64,000 nt of DNA from Mycobacterium sp. EPa45. GTDB taxonomy: Bacteria > Actinomycetota > Actinomycetes > Mycobacteriales > Mycobacteriaceae. The stretch covers positions 1,860,001 to 1,924,000 of the forward strand of contig NZ_CP011773.1 in assembly GCF_001021385.1 (NCBI RefSeq), read 5' to 3'. The notes below the pieces were generated by a model. That model worked only from the letters and a program-made list of their open reading frames with translations, was not told the DNA's origin and did not search any database. Position numbers and translations under genes: made by a program. Numbering within the stretch: position 1 is the stretch's first letter; each line of letters begins with the position of its first letter. Below are positions 15,512 to 19,203 of this stretch, one piece after another.

Positions 15512-17829
15512 GACAGCGGTCGGATCAGGTTGACGGCGTCGTCCACCGGGTGACGTGCCCGATCTGCGAGGTCATGTGCGGGCTTCGCGTGACGATCGAC
15601 GGTGGCCGGGTCACCGACATTCGCGGCAACAACGACGATGTCTGGTCGGCCGGGCATATCTGTCCCAAGGGCACTGTTCTCGGCCAACTGCACGACGACC
15701 CGGATCGCCTGCGAGCACCGATGATCAAGCAGCCCAACGGGATTCACATCGCCGTCTCCTGGGAGGAGGCGTTCGCCGAAGCGGAGCGGGTCCTGCGGCC
15801 GGTGCTGGACAGCGACGGCGCCCAGGCGGTGACGGTGTACGTCGGTAATCCGGTCGCGCACAACCTGGGCCTGAGTTCGTACATCGGCGCCCTGGTCGGG
15901 ATGGGCGCCGCGGCCGGGATGGGCGCGTACTACTCGCCGGGCACGGTTGACCAGTGGCCGCTCAATGTCGTCAGTACCCTGCTGTTCGGCGGCATGTGGA
16001 ACGCGCCGATCCCCGATCTGGCCCGCACCGACCATCTCGTCGTGATCGGCGCCAATCCCGCCGCATCGCAGGGATCGATGCTGTCGGCGCCCGACGTGAC
16101 AGGTCATCTGACCGCTATCCGCAAGCGCGGCGGTCGGGTGGTGGTCATCGATCCTCGTCGCACCGAGACCGCCCAGCGGGCCACCGACTGGGTGCCGATC
16201 CGGCCCGGCACAGACGCGTTGGTGTTGTTCGCAGTGCTGCGAACGCTGGCCGCCGACGGGCTGCTGCGCAGCCATACGCACCTCGACGGACGCGTCCAGG
16301 GACTCGATGCGGTGATCGCCCTCGCCGAACCGTTCACTCCGGAGATCGTCGAAGGCCCCAGCGGTATCCCGGCCGAAACGATCCGGCGGCTCGCTCATGA
16401 CCTCGCCTCGGCGCCGAACCCCGTGCTGTACAGCCGGATCGGGGCCTGCACCCAAGAGTTCGGCACCCTGACCACCTGGCTGGTGTTCGTGCTGAACACC
16501 GCACTGGGTGCGGTCGACCGGCGCGGGGGAGCGGTGTTCCCCACCCCGGCGGTGTACTCGCCGATGTTCATGAAGCCACCCGATCAGCTTGGTCCGCGTT
16601 GGGAATTCGGCCGTTTCACGTCGCGGGTGCGCGGCGTTGGCGAGGTGCTTGGGCAGTTCCCGGTCAGCTGCCTGGCCGAAGAGATCACCACTCCTGGTGC
16701 GGGACGCATCCGCGCAATGATCTCGGTCGCGGGCAATCCGGCGATCTCGGCGCCGGCGGCGGGCCGCCTCGACGAGGCGCTGGCGTCACTGGACGCGTTG
16801 ATCTGCGTGGACAATTGGCTCAACGAGACCACCCGGCACGCCCACGTCATCTTCCCCGGTCTCTCGCCGCTGGAACGGCCGCACGCCGACGATCTGTACT
16901 GGATCTATGCCGTCGCCTCCTGCCTGAAGTGGTCCGAACCCGTCTTCGCGCCCGACCCGTTGCGACCGACCGAATGGGAAGTGCTCCTTCGTCTTTCAGG
17001 CGCCCTGCTGGGTACGCCGGCGCCCGAGGTGGACGTCGCCGCGATGGACGACCTGTACACCGGCGGACTGGTCGCCACCATGTGCGCTCAGCCGGGCACG
17101 CCGCTGACCGGACGCGACCCGAACGAGGTGATGGCTGCACTCAAAGGCCAAGGGCCGGAGCGTATTTACGATCTGTACGTCCGTCTCGGTCCCTGGGGCG
17201 ACGGCCTGGGCGCCAATCCGGACGGGCTGACCCTCGAGGAGGTGCGCAAGCATCCCGACGGCCTACGGCTCGCTGAACTCGACGGCGGCCGCCTGGAATC
17301 CGCGGTCACCACGCCGTCCGGGACCATCGAGCTGGTGCACGACTTGTTCGTCGACGACGTGCCCCGGCTGCGCGAGCGCCTTGACCGGGCCGAGGAGTCG
17401 ATGCTGCTGACCAGTCGGCGCCATCTGCGGTCGAACAACTCGTGGCTGCACAACGTGCCGTCGCTGATGCGCGGGCGGGACCGCTGCACGCTGCTCGTCC
17501 ATCCCGACGATGCCATGCGGATCGGGGTTGGCGACGGCGAACTCGCCGAGATTCGCACTTCGGAGGGGAAAGTGTCTGTGCCCGTTGAGGTCAGCGACGA
17601 CATAATGCCCGGGGTGGTCTCCTTGCCGCACGGCTGGGGGCACGGTGTGTCGGGTAGCAGGCTCGGTGTCGCCAACCACCACCCAGGTGTGAACTCCAAC
17701 CTGCTCAACCCACCCGATCTGATCGACGTGCCCAGCAACACTCAGGTGGTCAACGGGGTGCCGTGCGAGGTGCGGGCGACGGGCTCCGGCGCCTCAGTCA
17801 TTGATCGAGTCGGCGAGGCGCTGGAGTAA
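15505..17829 (+). CDS. Molybdopterin-dependent oxidoreductase (formate dehydrogenase/nitrate reductase superfamily)
   Basis: 774 residues from GTG 15505. The N-terminus carries a [4Fe-4S] motif, Cys18-x2-Cys21-x3-Cys25...Cys53-PKG, then bis-MGD binding segments (IGANPAASQGSM, VVVIDPRRTETAQRATDWVPIRPGTDAL) and a C-terminal barrel ending in VSLPHGWGHG, GVNSNLLNPPDLID and NGVPCEV. No in-frame TGA is seen, so it is not a selenoprotein. The residue that ligates molybdenum is not obvious in YYSPGTVDQWP. No TAT signal or partner subunit is nearby, so it seems to be a cytosolic single-subunit enzyme of unknown substrate, similar in type to M. tuberculosis Rv0197 (from memory). Confidence 0.88.
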   Translation: MSRQRSDQVDGVVHRVTCPICEVMCGLRVTIDGGRVTDIRGNNDDVWSAGHICPKGTVLGQLHDDPDRLRAPMIKQPNGIHIAVSWEEAFAEAERVLRPVLDSDGAQAVTVYVGNPVAHNLGLSSYIGALVGMGAAAGMGAYYSPGTVDQWPLNVVSTLLFGGMWNAPIPDLARTDHLVVIGANPAASQGSMLSAPDVTGHLTAIRKRGGRVVVIDPRRTETAQRATDWVPIRPGTDALVLFAVLRTLAADGLLRSHTHLDGRVQGLDAVIALAEPFTPEIVEGPSGIPAETIRRLAHDLASAPNPVLYSRIGACTQEFGTLTTWLVFVLNTALGAVDRRGGAVFPTPAVYSPMFMKPPDQLGPRWEFGRFTSRVRGVGEVLGQFPVSCLAEEITTPGAGRIRAMISVAGNPAISAPAAGRLDEALASLDALICVDNWLNETTRHAHVIFPGLSPLERPHADDLYWIYAVASCLKWSEPVFAPDPLRPTEWEVLLRLSGALLGTPAPEVDVAAMDDLYTGGLVATMCAQPGTPLTGRDPNEVMAALKGQGPERIYDLYVRLGPWGDGLGANPDGLTLEEVRKHPDGLRLAELDGGRLESAVTTPSGTIELVHDLFVDDVPRLRERLDRAEESMLLTSRRHLRSNNSWLHNVPSLMRGRDRCTLLVHPDDAMRIGVGDGELAEIRTSEGKVSVPVEVSDDIMPGVVSLPHGWGHGVSGSRLGVANHHPGVNSNLLNPPDLIDVPSNTQVVNGVPCEVRATGSGASVIDRVGEALE

Positions 17830-18246
17830 CTCGGTGAGCGCCAACTGCTCCTTGCCGGACAGGATGCCGAACAACTCCTCCGCCGCTGCGGTATAGGCGG
17901 TCGCCCAGGTTTCGGCCTGTCGCCGGCCGGTCGCAGTGGTCTGCAGCAGCGTCACCCGGCGGTCGGAGTCGTCCGCGCAGCGCTCGACCAAACCTTCGCG
18001 GACCAGCGCGTCGGTCAGGGTGGAGGCGGTGCCCTGGGTGATGCCCACCGTCCGGGCCAGGTCGGTGAGCCGCACCGGACCGCAGCGGTTCACCTCGAAG
18101 AGCACCTTCGAACGCGGGGTGGACACACCATGGTCGCCGAGCCGCTCGTCGAGGGCGCGGACAAGCGTCTTGCCGGCGCGCCCGAACGCGTCGGCAAGTG
18201 CGACGGCCCGCTGACGGGATTCGGCGTCGTGTGCTGAGCTCGGAAT
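17794..18246 (-). CDS. MarR-family regulator, probable ATT start codon
   Basis: The frame encodes a complete MarR fold: helix-1 dimer segment AVALADAFGRAGKTLVRALDERL, winged helix LTDLARTVGITQGTASTLTDALVREGLVERCADDSDRRV, then the C-terminal dimer helices. The first standard start is GTG 18126 (110 residues), which would delete helix 1. The frame is open to a stop at 18253-18255 with no ATG, GTG or TTG, but ATT at 18246 lies 9 nt after a perfect GGGAGG (18256-18261), giving 150 residues. I take ATT as the start; the 18126 GTG or a sequencing error are alternatives. It overlaps the molybdopterin gene end by 36 bp and diverges from the aldo/keto reductase it may control. Confidence 0.72.
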   Translation of the reverse strand: MPSSAHDAESRQRAVALADAFGRAGKTLVRALDERLGDHGVSTPRSKVLFEVNRCGPVRLTDLARTVGITQGTASTLTDALVREGLVERCADDSDRRVTLLQTTATGRRQAETWATAYTAAAEELFGILSGKEQLALTELLQRLADSIND

Positions 18247-18296
18247 GTGGCGTCACCTCCCTGGGTTGACAGGAAGCGTATCGCGCCCGCAAGATA

Positions 18297-18310
18297 GTTT
18301 GACATCAAAC
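18297..18310. promoter_or_regulatory. Inverted repeat GTTTGA-CA-TCAAAC, candidate MarR operator
   Basis: Six-base arms around a 2-bp centre lie in the 105-bp divergent gap between the MarR gene and the aldo/keto reductase, about 40 bp upstream of the reductase ATG. A second, looser inverted pair (CAATT...AATTG) follows at 18310-18326. Both fit the size of MarR sites. Confidence 0.55.
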
Positions 18311-18351
18311 AATTCGATTTCAATTGATCTTCCTGCGAGTGGAGGGACCCC

Positions 18352-19203
18352 ATGACCCGCTTTCCGTTGGCCGGCTTCAACGTCCACCGCGTCGGGTTCG
18401 GCGCCATGCAGCTTCCGGGGCCGGGTGTGTTCGGGCCGCCGCGGGACCATGACCAGGCGTTGGCGGTATTGCGCCGGGCCGTCGAGGCCGGCGTCGACCA
18501 CATCGACACGTCCCAGTTCTACGGTCCCGATGTGGCCAATCAGCTGATCCGTGAGGCGCTGCACCCCTATCCCGACAGTTTGGCTCTGGTGAGCAAGGTC
18601 GGTGCGCGCCGCGACGACCAAGGGGCGTGGCTGCCCTACAACGAGCCGGATCAGTTGCGATCCGCGATCGAGGAGAACTTGCGCACCCTCGGTGTCGAAC
18701 AACTGGCCGCCGTCAACCTGCGGGTGATGGAGAACGAGGCCGATGCGCTGTTCACCGATCAACTCGGCGCGATGATCACCGCCCGCGACGAGGGATTGAT
18801 CGCCGGTGTCGGGCTGAGCAATGTGAGCCACGAGCAGCTACTGCACGCCTTGGAGCTCACCGACATTGTGTGCGTGCAGAACCCGTTCAACCTGGTGGAC
18901 CGCTCCTCGCAGCCGGTGCTCGACGAATGCATCGCGCGCGACATCGCGTTCGTCCCGTTCTTCCCGCTCGGGTCGGCGTTTCACGAGGTGAATCCGGTGC
19001 TCTCGCACCACCTCGTCACCGGCGCCGCCGAGCGGCTCGGTCACACCCCGGCGCAGATCGCGCTGGCGTGGACGCTGGGCGTCGCCGACAACGTGCTGCT
19101 CATTCCCGGCACCTCGTCACTGGGTCACCTCGAGGAGAACCTCGCCGTCACCGACATCGAACTCGACGACGAGACGCAGCGCGAGCTGACCGCGGTCGCG
19201 TGA
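18352..19203 (+). CDS. Aldo/keto reductase
   Basis: 283 residues, ATG 18352 with GGAGGG 4 nt upstream. TIM-barrel aldo/keto reductase features are GFGAMQLPGPGVFG, HIDTSQFYG (catalytic Asp and Tyr), LVSKVG (catalytic Lys), GVGLSNVSHEQL, VQNPFNLVDR and a C-terminal NADPH-binding IPGTSSLGHLEENL. It should reduce aldehydes or ketones with NADPH. It is divergent from the MarR gene and most likely under its control, as in other redox- or electrophile-responsive MarR/reductase pairs. It ends just before the convergent fadE23 stop. Confidence 0.9.
   Translation: MTRFPLAGFNVHRVGFGAMQLPGPGVFGPPRDHDQALAVLRRAVEAGVDHIDTSQFYGPDVANQLIREALHPYPDSLALVSKVGARRDDQGAWLPYNEPDQLRSAIEENLRTLGVEQLAAVNLRVMENEADALFTDQLGAMITARDEGLIAGVGLSNVSHEQLLHALELTDIVCVQNPFNLVDRSSQPVLDECIARDIAFVPFFPLGSAFHEVNPVLSHHLVTGAAERLGHTPAQIALAWTLGVADNVLLIPGTSSLGHLEENLAVTDIELDDETQRELTAVA

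Follow-up and report, generated by a model that had tools for sequence, protein, structure and literature searches.

Translation of pcnB in Escherichia coli reportedly begins at an AUU codon that limits it. The infC start codon is an ATT in E. coli; in Streptomyces it is an ATC (PMC5472188). IF3 is described in two reports as discriminating against non-canonical start codons in general (PMC5472188, PMC8266586). Very few non-canonical starts outside infC are presented as well characterised in the first of these (PMC5472188), which also describes the Streptomyces sigR start, a conserved GTC that is repressed by IF3 and misannotated in available genomes. Staphylococcus aureus ccpN (AUA) and cvfC1 (AUU) each combine an AUH start with an extended Shine-Dalgarno (SD) sequence, both conserved, and output in poor medium is given as about 10% of that from AUG (PMC13009471). 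Since cvfC1 AUU reportedly showed no effect of medium, AUH starts need not be regulated (PMC13009471). The lacI gene of E. coli has a GTG, a weak repressor start under apparent selection, which makes target expression leaky and can reportedly be adaptive (PMC11445065). Ribo-RET mapping in M. tuberculosis reportedly gave no overall enrichment of ATT or ATC at initiation sites (PMC9094748), and such starts are therefore not common there. Gene finders depend on ATG, GTG and TTG, and AUH starts are often missed. The sequence-only reading of the locus described below held AUU initiation to be well known only for infC; this was too narrow, given other non-canonical starts in print (pcnB AUU, cvfC1 AUU, ccpN AUA and sigR GTC).

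The locus lies in a 64,000-nucleotide stretch of Mycobacterium sp. EPa45 (contig NZ_CP011773.1, positions 1,860,001 to 1,924,000), the whole of which is called the window here. On the minus strand, positions 17794-18246 hold an open frame of 150 codons from an ATT, plus a stop ending at 17794. The product is a MarR-family regulator: both a winged helix-turn-helix and the MarR fold were found, with Pfam matches to MarR (E 4e-11) and MarR_2 (E 3e-10) and scores above the curated cut-offs (PF01047, 43 bits against 24.6; PF12802, 40.6 against 27). An in-frame TGA at 18255-18253 precedes the ATT (18246-18244) by two codons. Between this TGA and a GTG at 18126-18124 (codon 41), which we read as an internal valine, the frame holds no ATG, GTG or TTG in the sequence of the window, just as the sequence-only reading had it. 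An upstream ORF in the same frame (18253-18831) runs antisense to the divergent reductase and closes at this TGA, inside the SD; at the other end, the MarR gene shares its last 36 bases (17794-17829) with the 3' end of a convergent molybdopterin oxidoreductase gene. The divergent neighbour, at 18352-19203 on the plus strand, is an aldo/keto reductase gene (Pfam Aldo_ket_red, 2.5e-41; NCBIfam PRK10376, 340 bits against a cut-off of 280) and the likely target of the regulator. It adjoins the MarR gene in all 21 other loci of the clade, with an incomplete match in two of them.

Upstream of the putative ATT start, at 18253-18260 on the minus strand, stands an extended SD, GGAGGTGA, whose TGA is the in-frame stop. 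All of its 8 nt can pair with this genome's 16S tail, GGATCACCTCCTTTCT, found at both rRNA loci, and a 6-nt spacer separates it from ATT. A GGGAGG placed 9 nt before the ATT had been singled out earlier: the hexamer is present (18261-18256, minus strand) and GGAGG does stand 9 nt from ATT, but the usable SD is longer, namely GGAGGTGA with its 6-nt spacer. The window contains a single GGAGGTGA-N6-ATT where 0.04 would be expected, for a pattern that was derived from the site itself.

Beyond the SD, a -10-like TACGCT (18275-18280, minus strand) marks a putative promoter; in 22/22 orthologues a TANGCT hexamer is present 26-29 nt ahead of the start codon and shortly before GTCAAC. The predicted leader would be about 21 nt long, with the SD within it. 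Structure prediction over 69 nt of leader gave nothing special (z 1.02). The palindrome GTTTGA-TG-TCAAAC (18297-18310), located in the divergent promoter region and kept in orthologues, is likely the MarR operator. A palindrome of TTYGANNTCAA type was found by pattern in 21 of the 22 orthologues, the remaining one (L030) having a variant.

Relatives were drawn from a contig scan (15 loci), from 198 congeneric genomes (29 matching at 1e-20) and from an overlapping set of 396 genomes, 24 of which matched at 1e-50: 22 form a close clade, window included, and two are outgroups. The contig-scan loci share a 600-base core with genomes of the larger searches and were counted once. Among the named records, those closest to the window's gene include Mycolicibacterium sp. 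P1-5 (96% identity), M. rhodesiae, M. vinylchloridicum and M. sphagni. In every one of the 22 orthologues GGAGGTGA is followed after 6 nt by ATH (ATT in 20, ATC in two), and never by ATG, GTG or TTG; the pattern used for this specified the SD, the A of the start codon and a GTCAAC a short way upstream, and none of the 21 loci failed it. The alignment of orthologues that the sequence-only reading had called for thus shows ATT (or ATC) and SD kept throughout and supports the ATT start it had proposed, and a standard start nearby in the same frame, the observation that would have spoken against it, appears in none of the 22. An indel or sequencing error, also considered there, is very unlikely: the SD-ATH arrangement agrees in 22 genomes, with no sign of an indel across them.

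Conservation bears as well on whether the ATT arose by drift, as a start that decayed without selection. ATT and ATC are synonymous and the second codon is variable, as drift would allow; against this, ATH is conserved in 22/22 while synonymous sites have diverged (pS against the window of 0.28-0.51 in 16 relatives), and the SD, instead of being decayed, is stronger. We consider drift very unlikely. The third position of the start codon is never G, which is only modest evidence for a start when G is likewise missing from 5 of 26 comparable fourfold columns and present in 21. The GTG within GGAGGTGA (GTG 18256) offers another conceivable start, from which a +1 frameshift would lead into the MarR frame. 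This GTG is found at -10 in 22/22 orthologues, as part of the SD; it sits within the SD with no SD of its own, its frame closes after five codons in two species, and no known shift site was seen by eye. Direct initiation at ATH is simpler, and the frameshift seems to us extremely improbable.

On a midpoint-rooted tree, a branch with 100/100 support places the 22 AUH orthologues on one side and 19 other homologues on the other, so that AUH and extended SD in this clade would most simply have one origin. The two ATC species are sisters (98/93) nested in the ATT group through a 91/84 fork; ATC would most simply derive from ATT, at a fork without starred support. In M. litorale F4 (L023/L034) the SD and ATT are kept and the MarR frame shifts later in the gene, with intact copies in other species; this may be a pseudogene, dispensability of the gene there, or an assembly error. 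Its start codon was counted, and it was omitted from codon counts and pN/pS. One genome, G175 (L030, L052), carries an AUH orthologue plus a second homologue at another locus.

The main conventional alternative is a start at a downstream canonical codon, here GTG 18126, yielding a protein without helix 1. This is the first standard codon in the window's frame, and a GTG stands at residue 41 in 17 of the 21 intact orthologues. The codons that such a start would forfeit (12-40, positions 18127-18213, minus strand, most of helix 1) are under strong amino-acid constraint. Their pN/pS is 0.134, next to 0.135 for the winged helix (codons 41-108), 0.31 for codons 109-150 and 0.66 for codons 2-11, all computed from pooled uncorrected pairs among 17 species with the frameshifted species left out. 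Variable columns within codons 12-40 number 7, 3 and 24 of 29 at codon positions 1, 2 and 3, a signature by which the region upstream of GTG 18126 is protein-coding. An AlphaFold (AF2) model built with 40 sequences (pLDDT 93.1) places helices at 3-39 (with high confidence), 105-126 and 131-149, the winged helix following the first and the other two being C-terminal. This agrees with the earlier observation that the frame encodes the helix upstream of GTG 18126. Foldseek matches in the PDB are MarR-family proteins, with TM-scores to the query of about 0.5-0.77 in the best 50 rows; the best is ST1710, to which the sequence match covers residues 9-145. Helix 1 is part of the MarR dimer interface, and a downstream start would remove it.

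Nor do the canonical codons line up across the clade. In each gene's own numbering the first one falls at codon 23, 24, 28, 29, 39, 41, 46 or 52 among the 22 orthologues; once aligned, the 21 intact ones have it at residue 41 in ten, 28 in seven, 52 in three and 29 in one. In four of the 21, residue 41 is encoded by a non-canonical codon; through residue 120 there is no position at which all 21 carry a canonical one; and no SD-like stretch was seen by eye before GTG 18126. It is these four and the upstream constraint that disfavour a downstream start, not any wide absence of the residue-41 GTG.

Database records are the other point in favour of a downstream start. Among the 120 of 219 rows listed, 18 show at least 80% identity, and 16 of these 18 are 93-123 aa long. 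Such lengths are consistent with gene callers having moved to a downstream codon, and the rows may include contig ends; they suggest that many database copies of the repressor are cut short by at least 27 residues. The M. sphagni protein P0001 is given 150 aa in NCBI, its ATH codon read as Met, and at least one pipeline therefore already calls the AUH start. Weighing these points, we judge initiation at the downstream codon to be very improbable, with about the same small likelihood as drift. Two further records are known here from protein. P0002 (81% identical) has its annotated Met about where the others have their TGA codon and might come from a near relative that uses a canonical start; among 397 relatives searched with P0002, 12 genomes matched, none closer than 82%. 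The annotated N-terminus of P0005 (75% identical) seems to span what is promoter and SD in its relatives, which suggests that its true start is internal, perhaps an ATC.

The ATT at 18246 is well supported by comparison as the translation start. No canonical start precedes the conserved coding region, and a conserved AUH codon follows a strong, properly spaced SD, as expected of an AUH-start gene. Genome-wide, GGAGGTGA-N4-8-ATH occurs at 31 places and a backwards control pattern at 4. A filter for AUH starts (at least 50 codons, no canonical codon upstream in frame and none in the first 10 codons) was passed by three of the 30 places with loci, the MarR gene included, and narrowly failed by L086; the two other places that passed match no Pfam family, even at E values up to 1. 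This search covered the GGAGGTGA pattern, so infC, with its different SD, falls outside it and further AUH starts may exist.

Nine of the 19 homologues across the 100/100 branch share the divergent aldo/keto reductase (69-72% identical) and have an apparent GTG start, judged from context; the other ten have no reductase in their flanks. SD strength was scored for the nine: looking up to 20 nt from the start, each has a longest contiguous anti-SD match of 4 or 5 nt, which falls outside the SD core in L046 and L048, whereas this match is 8 nt in 19 and 9 nt in three of the 22 AUH genes. The AUH clade and the GTG homologues differ in both halves of the initiation site, the former combining a weak start with a strong SD. 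Because the 22 genomes share AUH and an 8-9 nt SD against at most 5 nt in their sisters, a trade of start strength against SD strength can be traced on the tree. Seven homologues with no reductase in their flanks (L035, L036, L039-L042, L044) have GTCAAC directly followed by ATG or GTG, leaving no space for an SD; such an arrangement resembles leaderless initiation, unlike the SD-led starts of the AUH clade.

With good confidence, we propose that the gene encodes a working MarR repressor whose AUU start (AUC in two species) is picked by an 8-9 nt SD, and that this start is low in output and IF3-sensitive, with the repressor autoregulated and controlling the divergent reductase. As the layout of the sequence suggests, the MarR protein would bind the palindrome between the MarR and aldo/keto reductase genes and repress both. 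By analogy with other systems, IF3 would destabilise AUH initiation complexes and bring repressor output per mRNA several-fold below that from AUG, and the strong SD would keep the weak codon usable. A low repressor level would leave the target readily induced and leaky. Low output of the ATT start is likely, and the rare start together with the unusually strong SD probably holds the amount of repressor low. A fall in free IF3 would raise the repressor level along with that of infC; such tuning of the MarR start is plausible, and repression by IF3 is expected biochemically because IF3 discriminates against such codons in general. In the infC gene of the same genome (G000:C1:3750471-3750965, L053), the frame lacks any ATG, GTG or TTG from its upstream stop to where the conserved IF3 sequence sets in; its best apparent start is an ATC that follows GGGAGGCCCC.

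AUU initiation might equally be real and yet set a fixed low level only, with IF3 not a physiological input, and to this we give an even chance. The S. aureus cvfC1 AUU is described as low and unresponsive to medium (PMC13009471), and a weak repressor start may be selectable for leakiness alone, as reported for lacI GTG (PMC11445065). IF3 discrimination is nonetheless portrayed as general biochemistry, so some IF3 dependence is to be expected (PMC5472188). Returning to the IF3-sensitive repressor, a bolder version is that the clade set the MarR repressor and the aldo/keto reductase under infC's IF3 read-out, repressor synthesis acting as a sensor of free IF3 and hence of translation capacity through an AUH with an 8-9 nt SD in place of the GTG and short SD of sister lineages. 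This we regard as speculative and rather doubtful. If true, the IF3 read-out would join a metabolic gene to the state of the ribosome, and the gene would count as a rare case of a transcription repressor whose start is read by IF3, to our knowledge the first in mycobacteria.

By comparative evidence the MarR ATT start is real, conserved and rare, and non-canonical starts in regulators are already known; among the matches listed from the open-licence PMC literature, none described an ATT start for a MarR gene or for any gene of this clade. An AUU start is shared with pcnB, which is no regulator and encodes a poly(A) polymerase. With lacI the MarR gene shares a weak start codon on a repressor, although the lacI GTG is a standard start and mildly weak only. 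An AUH start with an SD is common to infC and the MarR gene; infC regulates itself through IF3, whereas MarR is no translation factor. The S. aureus genes resemble it in encoding a transcription regulator (ccpN) or possible regulator (cvfC1) and in pairing AUH with an extended SD conserved among relatives. They differ in belonging to Firmicutes, in encoding other proteins, and in that initiation was mapped and measured there and is inferred here. Streptomyces sigR differs in using GTC rather than AUH, in encoding a sigma factor and in having an IF3 effect that is experimental; like the MarR gene, it encodes a transcription factor of an actinobacterium and has a non-canonical start that is conserved.
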